DNA from: Ensifer sp. BR816
GTDB lineage: Bacteria > Pseudomonadota > Alphaproteobacteria > Rhizobiales > Rhizobiaceae
Direction: 5' to 3'
Assembly (NCBI RefSeq): GCF_000378985.1
Contig: NZ_KB905370.1
Location: 620,001 to 684,000 of the forward strand
DNA: 64,000 nt
This document shows, in pieces, positions 13,114-37,319 of the stretch (positions are counted from its first letter, which is position 1; each line of letters opens with the position of its first letter). The notes beneath the pieces were generated by a model, which was given only the letters and a program-made list of their open reading frames with translations, ran no database searches and had not been told where the DNA came from. The position numbers and the translations under genes are program-made.

Positions 13114-15366
13114 CTACGCCTTCCCGGCCTCGAGCAGCCGAGCGACTTCGGCGAGGAGCCGCTCCGGTTCGGCCGGCTTTGTCAGCACTGCCTCCGCACC
13201 GCTCGCAAGCAACAACCGATGAAGATCGCGGCGAGCGTCCGACGTCAGGACCACCACCGGTATCCGGCTCCAGCTCCCGGGCGCTTCCCCCCCTCGAAGA
13301 CGCCGGAGCAGGTCAAGGGCGTCGCCACCCGGCATGTTGAAGTCCGTTACGATGAGGCCCGGTGCACCCTTCCCCTGCATGAACGCCTCGAGCGCCGCGA
13401 AGTCGCCGACGTGGTCTACGGCTTTGCCGTCCCTCTCCAGCATCTTCCGCAGCACCAGGGCGTTTACCGGATCGTCCTCGGCGAGCAGAACCCGGCGACC
13501 ATCCTGCAGGGCCGCCGCCGCCTTGGGCGGTTCCGCCCTCAGCATTGGCCTGTTGTCGTTGATGCCGTCGCGTTTCTCGATGCCCGTCAGCCGGCCGAGC
13601 AGCACCTCCACCAGGGACTTTTCCCGCAAGGGACGGATCAGCCAGGCTTCGTACCCGCCCATCCGGTTCACCGGATGGCTCGTGCGCTCTTCCGGGCTGA
13701 TCAGGCAGGTCCTGCGCCATTGCTGACGTTCGATTGCCGGCTCCAGGGACAGGAGTTCGCGGAATTGCGCGGCGTGTCGGTGATCGACGATGATGTCCGT
13801 CAGCGGCAAGCGGCCGGCGAGCACCTTGGCCACCACGCCGCGCGCGGCCGACAGCGTCGGGGCGCGATGGCATTGGCCACCAAGCGTCTCGATCGTCGAG
13901 GCAAGGGCCGTCGAAGCGGGGCCGTCGGGAGCGAGCACGAGCACATGCGCGGCGGCGAGGATGCCGCGGCGGGGATGAGCCGCTGAATCGGCCCCCTCGA
14001 TCGGAAAGCAAATTTCGAAGCGGCTTCCCTCTCCCGCGACGCTCGACGCCGTCAGGTTGCCGCCGAAAGCCTCCATGATGCGGCGGGATATCGCCAGCCC
14101 AAGACCGGTTCCCTTGGAACGCTGGGCGTCGTCACCGGCCTGCTCGAAGTCCTCGAAGACGCGCGCCAGTTCGTCTGCCGACATGCCGGGGCCGCTGTCA
14201 TCGACACGAATGCGGATCTGTCCCCCGACGACGTCGGCCGTGACCAGCACGCCGCCGGTCTCGGTGAATTTCACGGCGTTGCCGATGACGTTGAACAGGA
14301 CCTGCCGCAGGCGTGCAGAATCGAACGCAAAGCGGGTCGGCACCGTGGCATCGATCGCCGCACCGATTTCGATACCTTTCTCGTGGGCGCGATGAGAAAG
14401 CATCTCGACCACGTTCTCGATCACCAGGCGCAGTTCCTGCTCGGACGGATGCAACTGGAACCGGCCGGCCGAGAGCGCGGAGAAATCGATCAGGTCCTCT
14501 ACGAGTTGTACCAGGGCATGGCCGGACTGCTGCATGTCCGCGAGATAGTTCCGCTGCTCGGGCGACAATTGCGTCTGGGCGAGCAGATGGCTCATCCCGA
14601 GGATGCCGGAAAGCGGCGTGCGGATCTCGTGTGTCACGGTCGCAAGCAGGCGTGACTTTGCCTGGCTCGCCTCTTCGGCGCGCAGCCGCGCCTCCTCCCC
14701 CCGACGCGCTGCCTGCGCCTCTTCCGTCACGTCCCGGGCGATGCTGTGGCGCATCAGCCGGCCGCTTGCCGGCTCACGGATGACGACATCATGCCAATCG
14801 TAGAGGCGCGTGCCGGCCGGCGTCGCGAACCGCACGATGAAACGGTCGGGATCCGGCCGCGGCTCAAAAATGAGGCCCAGCGAAGCGCAGGTCAGCCCGC
14901 CTACGTCCGTCCGGCCGCACATCCGACGGAAGACGCCATTCGCCTGCACGATCCGCCCATCCATTCCACGAATGAGGGCAATGTCCCCCAGCGCGTCATG
15001 GATGGTCGAAAGCAGCTTGGCGGTTTCCGCACATTGCCGCTCCGCATCGCTTGCGACTTTGCCCGGCTGGGGGGGTGCGCTGTCGCTGGAGAGCAGCAGG
15101 AATGCGCCGGCGAGAGCGCCGACGGCCGCAAGGGCCGGGAACAGATGAAGGCCGGCGCGCACGCCGACGACGAGGAGAAGCGCTGCGGCACAGAGACCGG
15201 CGAGAGCAAGAAAAATGCGGCCAACGGACATTTCCCGGCCGGTCGGCGACCGGGAAAGGCCACCGGCGATCGCCGTGACCATGGCGGATGATGCGACGTC
15301 AATGGCGTCGGATCTTGCGCCCGAGCCGGCTCGTTTGGGCTGCTTGGCTGGTGAAGGCTCGCTCAT
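13114..15366 (-). CDS. Hybrid sensor histidine kinase with PAS and receiver domains
   Basis: The ATG at 15366 gives 750 aa; an in-frame TTG 21 bp upstream is possible but weaker. In order: a cytoplasmic N-tail, two membrane helices (about residues 48-92), a PAS-like region (about 115-215), HisKA with THEIRTPLSG (phospho-acceptor His about 246), an HATPase_c domain with NVIGNAVKFTE and DSGPGMS, a degenerate receiver-like middle, and a C-terminal receiver with LIVTDFNMPGG carrying the phospho-acceptor Asp. The C-terminal receiver suggests a phosphorelay. No response regulator gene is adjacent and the signal is unknown. Confidence 0.92.
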   Translation of the reverse strand: MSEPSPAKQPKRAGSGARSDAIDVASSAMVTAIAGGLSRSPTGREMSVGRIFLALAGLCAAALLLVVGVRAGLHLFPALAAVGALAGAFLLLSSDSAPPQPGKVASDAERQCAETAKLLSTIHDALGDIALIRGMDGRIVQANGVFRRMCGRTDVGGLTCASLGLIFEPRPDPDRFIVRFATPAGTRLYDWHDVVIREPASGRLMRHSIARDVTEEAQAARRGEEARLRAEEASQAKSRLLATVTHEIRTPLSGILGMSHLLAQTQLSPEQRNYLADMQQSGHALVQLVEDLIDFSALSAGRFQLHPSEQELRLVIENVVEMLSHRAHEKGIEIGAAIDATVPTRFAFDSARLRQVLFNVIGNAVKFTETGGVLVTADVVGGQIRIRVDDSGPGMSADELARVFEDFEQAGDDAQRSKGTGLGLAISRRIMEAFGGNLTASSVAGEGSRFEICFPIEGADSAAHPRRGILAAAHVLVLAPDGPASTALASTIETLGGQCHRAPTLSAARGVVAKVLAGRLPLTDIIVDHRHAAQFRELLSLEPAIERQQWRRTCLISPEERTSHPVNRMGGYEAWLIRPLREKSLVEVLLGRLTGIEKRDGINDNRPMLRAEPPKAAAALQDGRRVLLAEDDPVNALVLRKMLERDGKAVDHVGDFAALEAFMQGKGAPGLIVTDFNMPGGDALDLLRRLRGGEAPGSWSRIPVVVLTSDARRDLHRLLLASGAEAVLTKPAEPERLLAEVARLLEAGKA

Positions 15367-33281: not shown

Positions 33282-33896
33282 TCAGTCGTGCGTCTCGCCG
33301 GAAAGCGGCGTCGCCTGCATGGATGGGCGCCGCTCGAATGCATCGAACCACCGGGCCAGCCTCAGTCGATCGCGAAACGACGGCAGGCCGCGGAACGCCA
33401 TCCAGGAAAGCGCCGTCGCCAGCGCAATATGGCCGACATGGAGCGGCGCCTCGAAGTCCGGTGTCGTCTCCAACCAGTCATAGGTCGCCTCGATCTTTTC
33501 GGCATAGCCATCGCGAAGCGCTTCGTAGCGCAGCGGTTCCGGCCGTCGAACGGTTTCCCAGCGCAACGCAATTCCCGTCTGGGCCAGCCCTTGCGCGACC
33601 GATTGCAGCGTCAATGCCTGCCAGCGGCTTTCACCGTCCTCCGGAACGAGCCTTCTGCCGCCGTGGATGGTATCGAGATAGGCGCAGATCACATCGGAAT
33701 CGAAGATCGGCGCCGCATCTGCACGGAGCAGCACGGGCACCTTGCCGAGTGGATTTTCGGCGTACACCCGATCGTTGCGCAATGTCGGGCTCGTCTCGTG
33801 GTGGATGACCTCCAGCCGGGCGGCTATCCCCGCTTCATGGGCAAAGACGAGCACCTTTCGGGCGAAGGGGGAGTGCGTCTGATAATACAGGATTAT
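33282..33896 (-). CDS. Glutathione S-transferase family protein with an apparent ATA start codon
   Basis: The 204 aa sequence reads (start)ILYYQTHSPFARKVLVFAHEAG, an N-terminal thioredoxin fold with a SPFAR active-site turn, then NPLGKVPVL and the cis-Pro loop, FDSDVICAYLD, and an alpha-helical C-domain. The codon where homologs carry ATG is ATA at 33896, with GCGAGG about 5 nt upstream. The first standard start in frame is GTG at 33854, which would remove the active-site turn. I therefore take the ATA coordinate. Substrate unknown. Confidence 0.75.
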   Translation of the reverse strand: MILYYQTHSPFARKVLVFAHEAGIAARLEVIHHETSPTLRNDRVYAENPLGKVPVLLRADAAPIFDSDVICAYLDTIHGGRRLVPEDGESRWQALTLQSVAQGLAQTGIALRWETVRRPEPLRYEALRDGYAEKIEATYDWLETTPDFEAPLHVGHIALATALSWMAFRGLPSFRDRLRLARWFDAFERRPSMQATPLSGETHD

Positions 33897-34022: not shown

Positions 34023-34889
34023 TCAATCGCTCTTCTTCACCGGCGCGACGATCCCCCAGGTAATGCCGAAGGGATCGCGGAGCTGGCCGTAATAGTCGCC
34101 CCAGAAGGCGATCTCCAGCGGCATCGTCACTTCCGCCCCCGCCGCAACGGCCCGCTCCCACCAGAAATGGGCGTCGTCGACGATGAGGTGCAGGACGAAG
34201 CCCTCCGGCGGCTTCCAGGGAATGCCGAATTCCGGGAAGGGGTCGTTCAGCATCAGCGCGCCGCCGTTGATCGTCAGGTGGCAATGGATGAGGCGCTTGC
34301 CGTCTTCGGCATATTTGCGGTCCTCCTCCTTGGCGCCAAAGGCACGGCTGTAGAATTTGGCGGTTGCGTCCGCATTCTCGACGTTGAGATAGGCGATGAC
34401 GCCAGCCATCGGCGGATGCGAGGGCGCGTTCCAGTCGATCTTTGACGTGGGTTCGAGATCGATCGCCGCCTTGAAGCTCCCATCCATATAGAAGGGGACG
34501 GACTCGTGCTGGTGGGCGATCTTCCAGCCCTTGTCGGTGCGTTTCAGGCCGAGCGTATGGCGGTGCCAGAGCGAGACTTTCGCCCCGTCCTGCTTCTCGC
34601 CGGAAAGATGCGCCAACGCCGTGGCGAAGGCGACATCATCGCTTGATGAAATGTCGAGGTCCTGAAGCTCGTAGCCGAGCGGACCCTTCCAGGTGGAAAA
34701 CCACTTTTCCAGTCCCCCGGCATCGGCGTCCGAGGCCTTCAGGGGCGGCGCCAGCGAAAAGACCAGGCAATCCTCCGTGCCGTGGGAAAGCACGCGGCTT
34801 GCATCCTTCTGCCGCAGCGCTTCCGCCCAGTCTTCGATCACCGCCCGAATTGCCGCGGTGTTTGCGGTGCTGTTCTCGGTGGTGGACAT
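34023..34889 (-). CDS. SnoaL/DUF4440-like and VOC (PhnB-like) fusion protein
   Basis: The 288 aa protein has two parts. Residues about 8-140 look like a SnoaL/ketosteroid-isomerase-type cone (IRAVIEDWAEALRQKDASRVLSH ... WKIAHQHESVPF). Residues about 160-285 are a VOC domain (PPMAGVIAYLNVENADATAKFYSRAFGAKEE ... LRDPFGITWGIV). Each occurs alone elsewhere; here they are joined. It follows the SRPBCC gene with 14 bp between them, so they form one operon, probably driven by the ECF42-type promoter at 35420-35446. Confidence 0.85.
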   Translation of the reverse strand: MSTTENSTANTAAIRAVIEDWAEALRQKDASRVLSHGTEDCLVFSLAPPLKASDADAGGLEKWFSTWKGPLGYELQDLDISSSDDVAFATALAHLSGEKQDGAKVSLWHRHTLGLKRTDKGWKIAHQHESVPFYMDGSFKAAIDLEPTSKIDWNAPSHPPMAGVIAYLNVENADATAKFYSRAFGAKEEDRKYAEDGKRLIHCHLTINGGALMLNDPFPEFGIPWKPPEGFVLHLIVDDAHFWWERAVAAGAEVTMPLEIAFWGDYYGQLRDPFGITWGIVAPVKKSD

Positions 34890-34903
34890 GGCTCATACCC
34901 CCT

Positions 34904-35386
34904 TCAGAGTTTTGCGACCAGGGCGGCGAGCTGGTCGGCGCATTGGCCCCAGCCGTCGTGAAAGCCCATCTTCTCGTGCGCCTCGCGGTCCGCGGCGCTC
35001 CAGTGGCGGGCGCGAGCCGTATAGCGGGTCTTGCCGCCCTCGTCCTCGAAGGTCAGGATTGCCGTCATGAAGGGTTTCTCGGACGGCTTCCAGGCCTCCG
35101 TGTAGGCGTCGGTCATCACCAGCTTCTCGTTCGGCACGACGTCCAGATAGACGCCCTGGTTCGGATAGAGATCGCCCTCCGGCGAACGCATGACGAAGCG
35201 ATTGGTGCCGCCTGGCCTGACATCGAGTTCCGCTTCCGTGATCGTCCACGGCAGGGGTGCGAACCATTGCTTCAGCAGTTCCGCGTCGGTAAAGGCGCGA
35301 TAGACTTTTTCGCGCGGTGCATCGATCAGGCGGATCAGAACCAGTTCGCGTTCGTCGGCAGGCTTGATGTCGGTCGCTGCGGTCAT
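34904..35386 (-). CDS. SRPBCC/AHSA1-family protein
   Basis: The 160 aa START-like protein begins MTAATDIKPADERELVLIRLIDAPREKVYRAFTDAELLKQWFAP, the Aha1-domain signature, and ends GWGQCADQLAALVAKL. Its hydrophobic-cavity fold suggests small-ligand binding; the true function is unknown. The ATG at 35386 has AGGAGGAATT upstream. An ATG at 35413 lies only 7 nt after the inferred -10 and is rejected. It is the first gene of a two-gene unit with the SnoaL-VOC fusion. Confidence 0.86.
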   Translation of the reverse strand: MTAATDIKPADERELVLIRLIDAPREKVYRAFTDAELLKQWFAPLPWTITEAELDVRPGGTNRFVMRSPEGDLYPNQGVYLDVVPNEKLVMTDAYTEAWKPSEKPFMTAILTFEDEGGKTRYTARARHWSAADREAHEKMGFHDGWGQCADQLAALVAKL

Positions 35387-35419
35387 TTTTGAATTCCTCC
35401 TTGATGGCTTCATGCATAG

Positions 35420-35446
35420 GACGGCCGGCCAGGTCGGGTCCCGACA
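35420..35446 (-). promoter_or_regulatory. Predicted ECF42-type promoter for SRPBCC-VOC unit
   Basis: On the minus strand, TGTCGG (35446-35441), a 17-nt spacer and CGTC (35423-35420) lie 33 bp before the SRPBCC ATG. The identical hexamer, spacer and tetramer occur before the YCII gene. The form agrees with the ECF42 motif I recall (TGTCGR at -35, CGWC at -10). Transcription from it is not demonstrated. Confidence 0.7.
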
Positions 35447-35467
35447 GCGGTCGTCGATTTTTTTCGT

Positions 35468-36736
35468 TTATTTTGCGGTGAGGTCCGAGGTGTCCGCCTC
35501 ATCTGCCAGATGATCGAGCTGCTGACGGATATAGGTGGCTTCCGCCGTGTTGGTAGCAAGCGCAATCGCCCGGTCGAAGGCGGTGCGCGCCTCCCGCGAC
35601 CGGCCCATCTGCTTGAGCAGGCCGCCGCGCAGGCCGTGGAAATAGAAATAGCCGGAGAGCCTGTCGGCGAGCGGCTCGACCAGCGCCAGCGCCGCCTCCG
35701 GCCCGTCGCGCTTCGAGACGGCCACCGCCCGGTTGAGGGTGACGACCGGGGACGGCTGCAGACGCTCGAGCGCCTGGTAGAGCAGGTCGATCTCCTCCCA
35801 ATCCGTCGCTTCCGGCCGCTCGGCGCGCGCATGCAGCGCCGCAATCGCCGCCTGGATCTGGTAGGGACCGGGGCGGCGATGGCGCATCGCCTTGTCGATC
35901 ATCGCCAGGGCTTCGGTGATCATCGGCCGGCTCCACAACTTCCGGTCCTGGTCGTCGAGCAGGACGATGGCGCCATTGGCATCGAAGCGGGCACGGGCAC
36001 GCGAATGCTGAAGCAACAACAGGGCCGTCAGCCCCATGATCTCCGGTTCTGCGGGAAACAACCGCAGCAGCAGCCGCGACAGGCGGATCGCCTCGTCGCA
36101 GAGGTCGGCCGAAACGCCTTCGGACCCATTCATCGCCGAATAGCCCTCGTTGAAGACGAGGTAGATCATCGTCGCGACGGCCGCGAGACGCTCGGCCCGG
36201 TCAGAAGCGTCCGGCGTTTCGAAGGGGATGCCGGCGGCCGCGACGCGCGCCTTGGCGCGGGTGATGCGCTGTTCCATCGCCGCCTCGCTGACGAGGAAGG
36301 CGCGGGCGATCTGCCGGACGGAAAGGCCGGACACGATCCGCAGCGCCAGCGCGATCTGCTGCGTCGCCGGCAGGGCCGGATTGCTGCAGACGAAGAGCAG
36401 CCGCAGGATGTCGTCGCGGTAGTGCACGCCATCGAGACGGTCCGCAAGCTCACTTTCCCTGTCATCGAGATCGGAAAGCAGTTCCTCCGGCGGCAGCGCC
36501 GTCTCGCGCGCTTGCCGCCGGACCTTGTCGATGCCGCTGTTGCGGCCGACGAAAATCAGCCAGGCTGCCGGATCGCGCGGCGGGCCGTTCTTCGGCCAGG
36601 TCTTCAAGGCCCGGATGCAGGCCTCCTGGAAGGCTTCCTCCGCCAGATCGAGATTGCGGAAATAGCGCAGCAGCGCGCCCATGGCCTGCGGCCGCGCCGA
36701 AACCAAGGCAAGATCGATCCAGGCGGTGTCGGTCAT
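35468..36736 (-). CDS. ECF42-type RNA polymerase sigma factor with long C-terminal extension
   Basis: The 422 aa protein has sigma region 2 (LAEEAFQEACIRALKTWP), region 4 (SVRQIARAFLVSEAAMEQRITRAKARV) near residues 150-180, and a roughly 230-residue C-terminal extension with TPR-like helices (YQIQAAIAALHARAERPEATDW, SPVVTLNRAVAVSKRDGPEAAL). This length and the linked DGPF/YCII gene fit group ECF42, where the C-terminal extension is thought to control activity in place of an anti-sigma factor. No anti-sigma gene is adjacent. It overlaps the YCII gene by 4 bp (ATGA). Confidence 0.9.
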   Translation of the reverse strand: MTDTAWIDLALVSARPQAMGALLRYFRNLDLAEEAFQEACIRALKTWPKNGPPRDPAAWLIFVGRNSGIDKVRRQARETALPPEELLSDLDDRESELADRLDGVHYRDDILRLLFVCSNPALPATQQIALALRIVSGLSVRQIARAFLVSEAAMEQRITRAKARVAAAGIPFETPDASDRAERLAAVATMIYLVFNEGYSAMNGSEGVSADLCDEAIRLSRLLLRLFPAEPEIMGLTALLLLQHSRARARFDANGAIVLLDDQDRKLWSRPMITEALAMIDKAMRHRRPGPYQIQAAIAALHARAERPEATDWEEIDLLYQALERLQPSPVVTLNRAVAVSKRDGPEAALALVEPLADRLSGYFYFHGLRGGLLKQMGRSREARTAFDRAIALATNTAEATYIRQQLDHLADEADTSDLTAK

Positions 36737-37107
36737 GGGGCGAGCTCGCTCGGCTTATAGAGGGAAAGGGGGCGGATTTCGTAAGAACCCGCAGCCGGAT
36801 TGGCTGCACTCAGCTCGCGGGCGAAATCGAGCGCCTCGTCCAGCGATGCGCAATCGATCAGGTAGAAGCCGAGCAGTTGCTCCTTGGTTTCGGCAAAAGG
36901 TCCATCGATGACGATGGTCTCGCCCGGGCTGTGGCGCAAGGTCGTGGCCGCCGTCGTCGGCAGGAGCCGCGCAACGGGGCCGAGCTTGCCGGCCTCGACA
37001 TATTTGCGCTGGACGGCAGTCAGGTCGCGCATGACCTTGTCGTCTTCCTCCTTGGTCCAGCCGCCGGTCACATCTTCCGAATTGTAGCAAAGCACCGCGT
37101 AAAGCAT
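36733..37107 (-). CDS. YCII/DGPF-domain protein
   Basis: The 124 aa protein starts MLYAVLCYNSEDVTGGWTKEEDDKVM and contains the family motif VIDGPFAETKEQLLGFYLID. DGPF proteins are the hallmark partners of ECF42 sigma factors; their chemistry is unknown. The ATG at 37107 is 27 bp from the predicted -10, and the stop overlaps the sigma gene start, so the pair is translationally coupled. Confidence 0.9.
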   Translation of the reverse strand: MLYAVLCYNSEDVTGGWTKEEDDKVMRDLTAVQRKYVEAGKLGPVARLLPTTAATTLRHSPGETIVIDGPFAETKEQLLGFYLIDCASLDEALDFARELSAANPAAGSYEIRPLSLYKPSELAP

Positions 37108-37134
37108 CGAGACCTCTCCCGCTTCGATTGAAAA

Positions 37135-37161
37135 GACGAATGACGAAAGAGATAGCCGACA
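37135..37161 (-). promoter_or_regulatory. Predicted ECF42-type promoter for YCII-sigma operon
   Basis: On the minus strand TGTCGG (37161-37156), a 17-nt spacer and CGTC (37138-37135) precede the YCII ATG by 27 bp. The same hexamer-17-tetramer is repeated before the SRPBCC gene, which implies autoregulation. The identification rests on this internal repetition plus the motif recalled for ECF42. Confidence 0.72.
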
Positions 37162-37319
37162 AGCGGGGCGAAAAAAATGCTCGTCGACGCTCCATCTCGA
37201 AGGAGGAACCGAGACGGGTCGCCCCTGACGGTGGTGGCCTTTCCTTGCCTTGCGGATTTCGGATGCGGCGAAAAGCCGAGAGGGCTGTCGAGCGACACCG
37301 CCGGCTGGTCTCATAACGC

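Follow-up and report, generated by a model that had tools for sequence, protein, structure and literature searches.

The sigma factor locus and its promoter elements

The stretch of DNA analysed here, called the window, comprises 64,000 nucleotides of Ensifer sp. BR816 (contig NZ_KB905370.1, positions 620,001 to 684,000) and carries on its minus strand the gene of an ECF42-type sigma factor with two putative promoter elements of the same form. The sigma factor, an RpoE10 orthologue of 422 amino acids (35468..36736), consists of a sigma2-sigma4 part and a helical-repeat extension of about 240 residues. Its start overlaps by 4 nucleotides with the stop of a gene for a YCII-related (DGPF-type) protein of 124 amino acids (36733..37107, minus strand; Pfam YCII, PF03795, 77.1 bits). 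A second unit on the same strand encodes an SRPBCC (AHSA1) protein of 160 amino acids (34904..35386; Pfam AHSA1, 131.2 bits) and, as its second gene, a fusion of a SnoaL-like and a VOC/glyoxalase domain with 288 amino acids (34023..34889; Pfam SnoaL_3 and Glyoxalase above cut-off). The orthologous locus of Sinorhizobium meliloti, SMc01151-rpoE10 / SMc01149-SMc01148, is classed as ECF42 in the study describing it (PMC6180224), and the system is already known in kind.

Both units are preceded by an exact match to TGTCGG-N17-CGTC on the minus strand. The element of the YCII gene (37135..37161) ends 27 bp before the ATG at 37107. That of the SRPBCC gene (35420..35446) ends 33 bp before the ATG at 35386, is directly followed by CTAT and is the counterpart of the promoter reported for SMc01149 (PMC6180224). 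The positions, gaps and differing spacers agree exactly with the original prediction, which had also proposed the promoter form common to both units. It had overlooked two features, the continuation of the -10 part as CGTC-Y-T and an A/T tract located some 10 bp in front of TGTCGG. From sequence and A/T profile, the UP-like tract lies at 37171..37177 for the YCII promoter, 9 bp upstream of TGTCGG, and at 35457..35464 for the SRPBCC promoter, 10 bp upstream (both minus strand). Transferring the SMc01149 start reported in PMC6180224, transcripts are predicted to begin near 37126 (YCII) and 35411 (SRPBCC). An alternative SRPBCC start codon at 35413 was rejected, since it would coincide with this predicted transcript start; the ATG at 35386 has GGAGG in front. 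Inspection by eye for an overlapping sigma-70 promoter before the YCII gene gave no convincing hexamers.

Counting matches within the window lends the elements no support. With up to one mismatch, 8 matches were found where 8.35 were expected, and 61 of 100 shuffles reached 8; a third exact match (13775-13801) was scored as coding. The elements rise above chance because of their placement and their conservation, and not by their number.

In the sigma protein, Sigma70_r2 (residues 15-77), Sigma70_r4_2 (121-164) and DUF6596 were detected by Pfam above cut-off, and TPR_2, TPR_21 and TPR_1 below it. The sigma domains proper are thus sigma2 and sigma4 only, followed by a TPR-bearing extension of roughly 200 residues according to Pfam and the structure model, as in ECF42. 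A SnoaL domain, typical for the extension of ECF41, was not matched in this protein up to an E of 0.01; it sits in a separate protein, a predicted target. The closest named relatives of the sigma factor are found in Sinorhizobium and Ensifer (84-94% identical; 93% for the counterpart in S. meliloti 4H41), and it has no other match in its own genome at E 0.001 or less. A sequence search of the PDB yielded four matches at E<=0.001, of which two are sigma chains of the ECF type and two are repeat or designed proteins; the whole architecture is present in none. The claimed absence of an anti-sigma gene held for the three neighbours scanned with Pfam (GST-like, DnaA and HemN-like) and for two scanned target proteins, the remaining neighbours having been inspected as open reading frames only. 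The GST-like gene (33282-33854, minus strand; Pfam GST_N_2) comes after the SnoaL-VOC gene on the same strand.

Conservation of the locus in related bacteria

The locus was compared among 80 named relatives. In all of them the YCII gene immediately precedes the sigma gene, in 74 with the 4-nucleotide overlap, and the proposed pairing of an extended ECF42-type sigma factor with YCII is borne out in this way as well as by Pfam and the structural match to TPR described below. The strict element TGTCGG-N17-CGTC stands upstream of the YCII gene in 70 of the 80 relatives. Of the ten others, four carry TGTCGA (L044-L046, L052) and three of the remaining six carry GGTCGG with the rest of the element kept. 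At the promoters of the locus the 17-bp spacing is preserved while the spacer sequences diverge. A second element is often present before the next gene, which in many relatives encodes SRPBCC; the pair of local units is conserved in Sinorhizobium.

Several variations of the locus were observed. In eight loci, five of Ensifer and three of Bradyrhizobium (L051, L053-L056, L097, L098, L102), a gene for a DoxX-like membrane protein (confirmed by Pfam for L054) replaces the SRPBCC gene, with the promoter in place. In 12 loci, mostly from Neorhizobium and Rhizobium, the YCII-sigma operon has a divergent VOC gene in its vicinity, which is furnished with an element of its own on the minus strand (L065, L069, L072, L074, L075, L080, L083, L084, L088, L090, L096, L103). 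Ensifer adhaerens ST2 possesses a second YCII-sigma pair just downstream of the first (L055:7488-9590), whose proteins are 36% and 43% identical to those of the window. Within the YCII spacer of many Rhizobiaceae, TACTCCTT-CGTC is kept about 10 bp before CGTC; the spacer often ends with TACTCCTT or a similar sequence, and L103, with its decayed -35 part, is no exception.

Sites in the whole genome and dispersed candidate target genes

The genome of the source strain (6.95 Mb, three contigs) was searched with the reversed pattern as control. The strict pattern gave 28 matches against 18, and the looser TGTCGR-N17-CGWC gave 111 against 50. A motif no commoner than at random sites had been named beforehand as an argument against the elements; this describes the window, and the whole genome shows an excess with both patterns. 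The looser form was set aside, since TGTCGA occurs in the YCII promoter of only the four loci given above. By script, 7 of the 28 strict sites were scored as promoter-placed, compared with 1 of 16 control sites. Correction by hand, with one site removed and two added, resulted in eight promoter-placed sites including those of the two window units. The added sites (C1:493497 and C1:2349780) had been called coding because an open frame continues upstream, and were counted after the conservation test and in view of the divergent gene layout. The site removed, C2:414193 before an aldo/keto reductase gene, falls within the last part of a gene for an ABC-2 membrane protein, and the genome G005 has the same spacer at this site. 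A further site (C1:1540987, CGTC-TT) overlaps the start of a frame that by eye looks like an MFS gene and was taken as chance.

The locus had been described as a self-contained regulon. This does not agree with the six further transcription units elsewhere in the genome in which the element shortly precedes a gene start provided with a ribosome-binding site: genes for a VOC/Ble-like protein, a GST, an alpha/beta-hydrolase, a RibD_C protein, a DUF6958 protein and a PhnB-like VOC protein. Five of them were subjected to a conservation test, in which up to 30 loci per gene from 33 genomes were searched for the strict element within about 400 bp upstream. It was found before the VOC gene in 28 of 30 loci, the GST gene in 29 of 30, the RibD_C gene in 27 of 30, and all 14 alpha/beta-hydrolase orthologues (18 of 19 if paralogues of 35% identity are counted). 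For DUF6958 the proportion is 8 of 14 loci, or 8 of 11 at an identity of at least 75%. For the PhnB-like site, conservation was observed in one genome, G005. There the PhnB-like gene and the DUF1428 gene facing it have a strict element on both sides; in the source genome the DUF1428 side reads GGTCGG.

The spacers are variable in most of these groups, and that of the GST promoters is unusually constant. A nearly identical spacer (AATCTCGTTTAGCC...) is present in most Sinorhizobium loci (L140-L169) as well as in one Neorhizobium and one Rhizobium genome (G064:C2:382342, G062:C30:462209), which looks as if the site of a second regulator overlapped it.

The excess of sites extends to other genomes. 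In the 33 genomes the strict pattern was matched 932 times compared with 411 controls, and its number was higher in every genome. With the extended form TGTCGG-N17-CGTCYT, 501 sites against 86 were counted in 50 sigma-bearing genomes, 2-16 per genome and again more than the control in each. Among 61 strict sites of G003, G004 and G005, from which 17 sites, mostly known targets, had been left out beforehand, 12 were scored by script as promoter-placed, some of them before additional VOC, SRPBCC and hydrolase genes. S. meliloti 4H41 has 11 sites of the CGTC-NT form (control, 2), all of which precede a plausible start codon. The genes, labelled by Pfam for some of the eleven, are those of YCII, SRPBCC, two VOC/Ble-like proteins, hydrolase, RibD_C, DUF1428, two GSTs, an MFS transporter and the counterpart of SMb20475.

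The aligned promoters allow a sharper description of the motif. The -10 part extends as CGTC-Y-T in most sequences with a nearly invariant T, and 15 of 70 YCII promoters have AT at this place. Upstream, the A/T tract appears at about -16 to -10 before TGTCGG with an A/T fraction of 0.82, compared with 0.39 at -45 to -26, and is only weakly developed in the promoters of the GST and DUF6958 genes.

Published expression data and alternative explanations

The analysed locus most probably encodes an rpoE10-type ECF42 sigma factor that directs a dispersed, mostly detoxification-type gene set from promoters composed of an A/T tract and TGTCGG-N17-CGTC(C/T)T. Expression data reported for S. meliloti bear directly on this. 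Overexpression of RpoE10 raised SMc01149-48, whose start was found by two methods 9 nucleotides after CGTC, and SMb20475-74 on pSymB, SMb20475 being a PhnB-like VOC protein; SMc01151 is given as unchanged, and the motif overlaps with the start mapped for this gene (PMC6180224). The original proposal that the sigma factor drives its own YCII-sigma operon is doubtful in view of this. A small, local and autoregulated regulon of only the two window units would account for their perfect elements, for the conservation of the pair in Sinorhizobium and for the few genes raised upon overexpression. However, it leaves unexplained the conserved elements before five dispersed genes, the response of the distant SMb20475-74 and the missing response of SMc01151, and we consider it very unlikely. 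The involvement of another sigma factor with a similar promoter at some of the sites is to be considered too, for example the ECF41 factor RpoE9 with TGTCACA-N16-CGTC, which has the TGTC and CGTC cores in common (PMC3616915). Yet the sites keep TGTCGG and N17 instead of CAC and N16, and the published targets with TGTCGG-N17 respond to RpoE10 (PMC6180224), which makes such a contribution extremely improbable.

A larger share of probability belongs to the view that the regulon is dispersed and the YCII element forms a separate subclass, the operon being transcribed mainly from another start and its element being used by RpoE10 weakly or with a further factor. This is possible, and the unchanged SMc01151 with its overlapping start speaks for it. 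So do the nucleotides after CGTC: a C follows in 10 of 70 distinct YCII promoters versus 135 of 142 other target promoters (Fisher p ~5e-34, relatedness ignored; GST and DoxX groups left out), and TACTCCTT-CGTC persists in L103 despite the decayed -35 part. On the other hand, 70 of 80 relatives have retained TGTCGG-N17-CGTC before the YCII gene, which is hard to explain for an unused element. The tail is also no clean divider of own and target promoters, as T follows in 21 of 28 GST and 3 of 8 DoxX promoters and CGTC-AT is reported for the SMb20475 promoter of strain 1021, which is induced (PMC6180224). The YCII element may therefore represent a promoter subclass or overlap another start.

Several points weigh against a dispersed RpoE10 regulon. 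In the published experiment six genes were raised, four of them at least 2-fold (PMC6180224); most of the predicted promoters hence did not visibly respond in S. meliloti, and most of the new targets remain predictions. Either the factor was largely held inactive, for instance by its own extension, or some sites are not its targets. The DUF6958 orthologues L220 (the closest, 89%), L221 and L227 have no element. The motif enrichment was counted in sigma-bearing genomes only, so that its link to the sigma factor is presumptive. Finally, the sigma2-sigma4 part of the structure model is of low to middling confidence.

Proposed mechanism and significance

In the structure model, the sigma protein forms a helical repeat of high confidence from about residue 220 onwards. 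Among known structures this part is matched best by a TPR domain (Z 16.0, root mean square deviation 3.4, 200 aligned residues), with the reservation that helical repeats easily reach high Z. According to a review, the extension of ECF42 factors is essential for activity, and interaction with a protein was proposed, YCII being the suspected partner (PMC8999054); another review mentions suppression by a bound ligand or protein as a proposal (PMC9023288). Control through the TPR extension would fit this picture. Judged by the gene layout, the 4-nucleotide overlap agrees with a coupled supply of YCII and sigma factor and is no proof of contact between them.

In the mechanism that we propose, the TPR-like C-terminal half would stand in for an anti-sigma factor, and the small YCII protein would be made together with the sigma factor from the overlapping genes. 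We infer that the TPR half, perhaps via YCII, gates the activity of the factor. Once active, the latter would guide RNA polymerase to promoters with an A/T tract, about 10 bp, TGTCGG, 17 bp and CGTC(C/T)T, and in this way drive the other units. In the source genome the targets would be the local SRPBCC / SnoaL-VOC unit, the six dispersed genes listed above and, with one mismatch, the divergent DUF1428 gene. Their products resemble binding proteins and enzymes for small molecules of a reactive or foreign nature. A response to a reactive or hydrophobic compound, as suggested originally from the ligand-binding-type proteins, is still conjecture and fits the wider set with GST, VOC, hydrolase, RibD_C and the MFS transporter of 4H41.

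The promoter anatomy, its conservation and the placement before the candidate target genes are read from sequence, and the TPR-like fold is taken from the model. New in this work are the conserved list of dispersed targets, presumed to depend on the sigma factor, and the sharper promoter model. A literature search of titles and abstracts found no wider ECF42/RpoE10 regulon in rhizobia. We tentatively envisage an RpoE10-dependent detoxification regulon that spans the genus, has so far escaped notice and comprises about 8-11 scattered promoters, while the sigma factor's own operon has a promoter of a separate subclass, which active RpoE10 uses differently. In that case the output genes would be controlled by one circuit and the supply of the sigma factor by another, and the switch would reside in the TPR half and in the YCII protein co-translated as its partner. 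ECF42 sigma factors are widespread. The conserved promoters, among them those of GSTs, VOC proteins, hydrolases, a RibD_C protein and, in S. meliloti 4H41, an MFS transporter, might serve as reporters to screen for the inducing compound and to test control of the TPR half by YCII or a ligand.

Comparison with known systems

The rpoE10 locus of S. meliloti, as described in PMC6180224, shares with the one analysed here the gene order and the kinds of proteins. Both of its units also have promoters identical in hexamer, spacer length and tetramer, so that the elements agree with the ECF42-type promoter mapped for RpoE10. The targets published there are SMc01149-48 and SMb20475-74, whereas a wider set of conserved promoters is predicted for the source genome. 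Sven_0747, Sven_4377 and Sven_7131 of Streptomyces venezuelae and ECF-10 of Pseudomonas putida, compared via the review PMC8999054, likewise have a TPR extension of about 200 residues and a YCII gene nearby and are described without an anti-sigma factor. ECF41 factors such as RpoE9 of S. meliloti also have an extension at the C-terminus instead of an anti-sigma factor and recognise a -10 region with the CGTC core. In contrast, the extension of RpoE9 is of the SnoaL type and its reported promoter is TGTCACA-N16, whereas the locus of the window combines a TPR-like extension with TGTCGG-N17.

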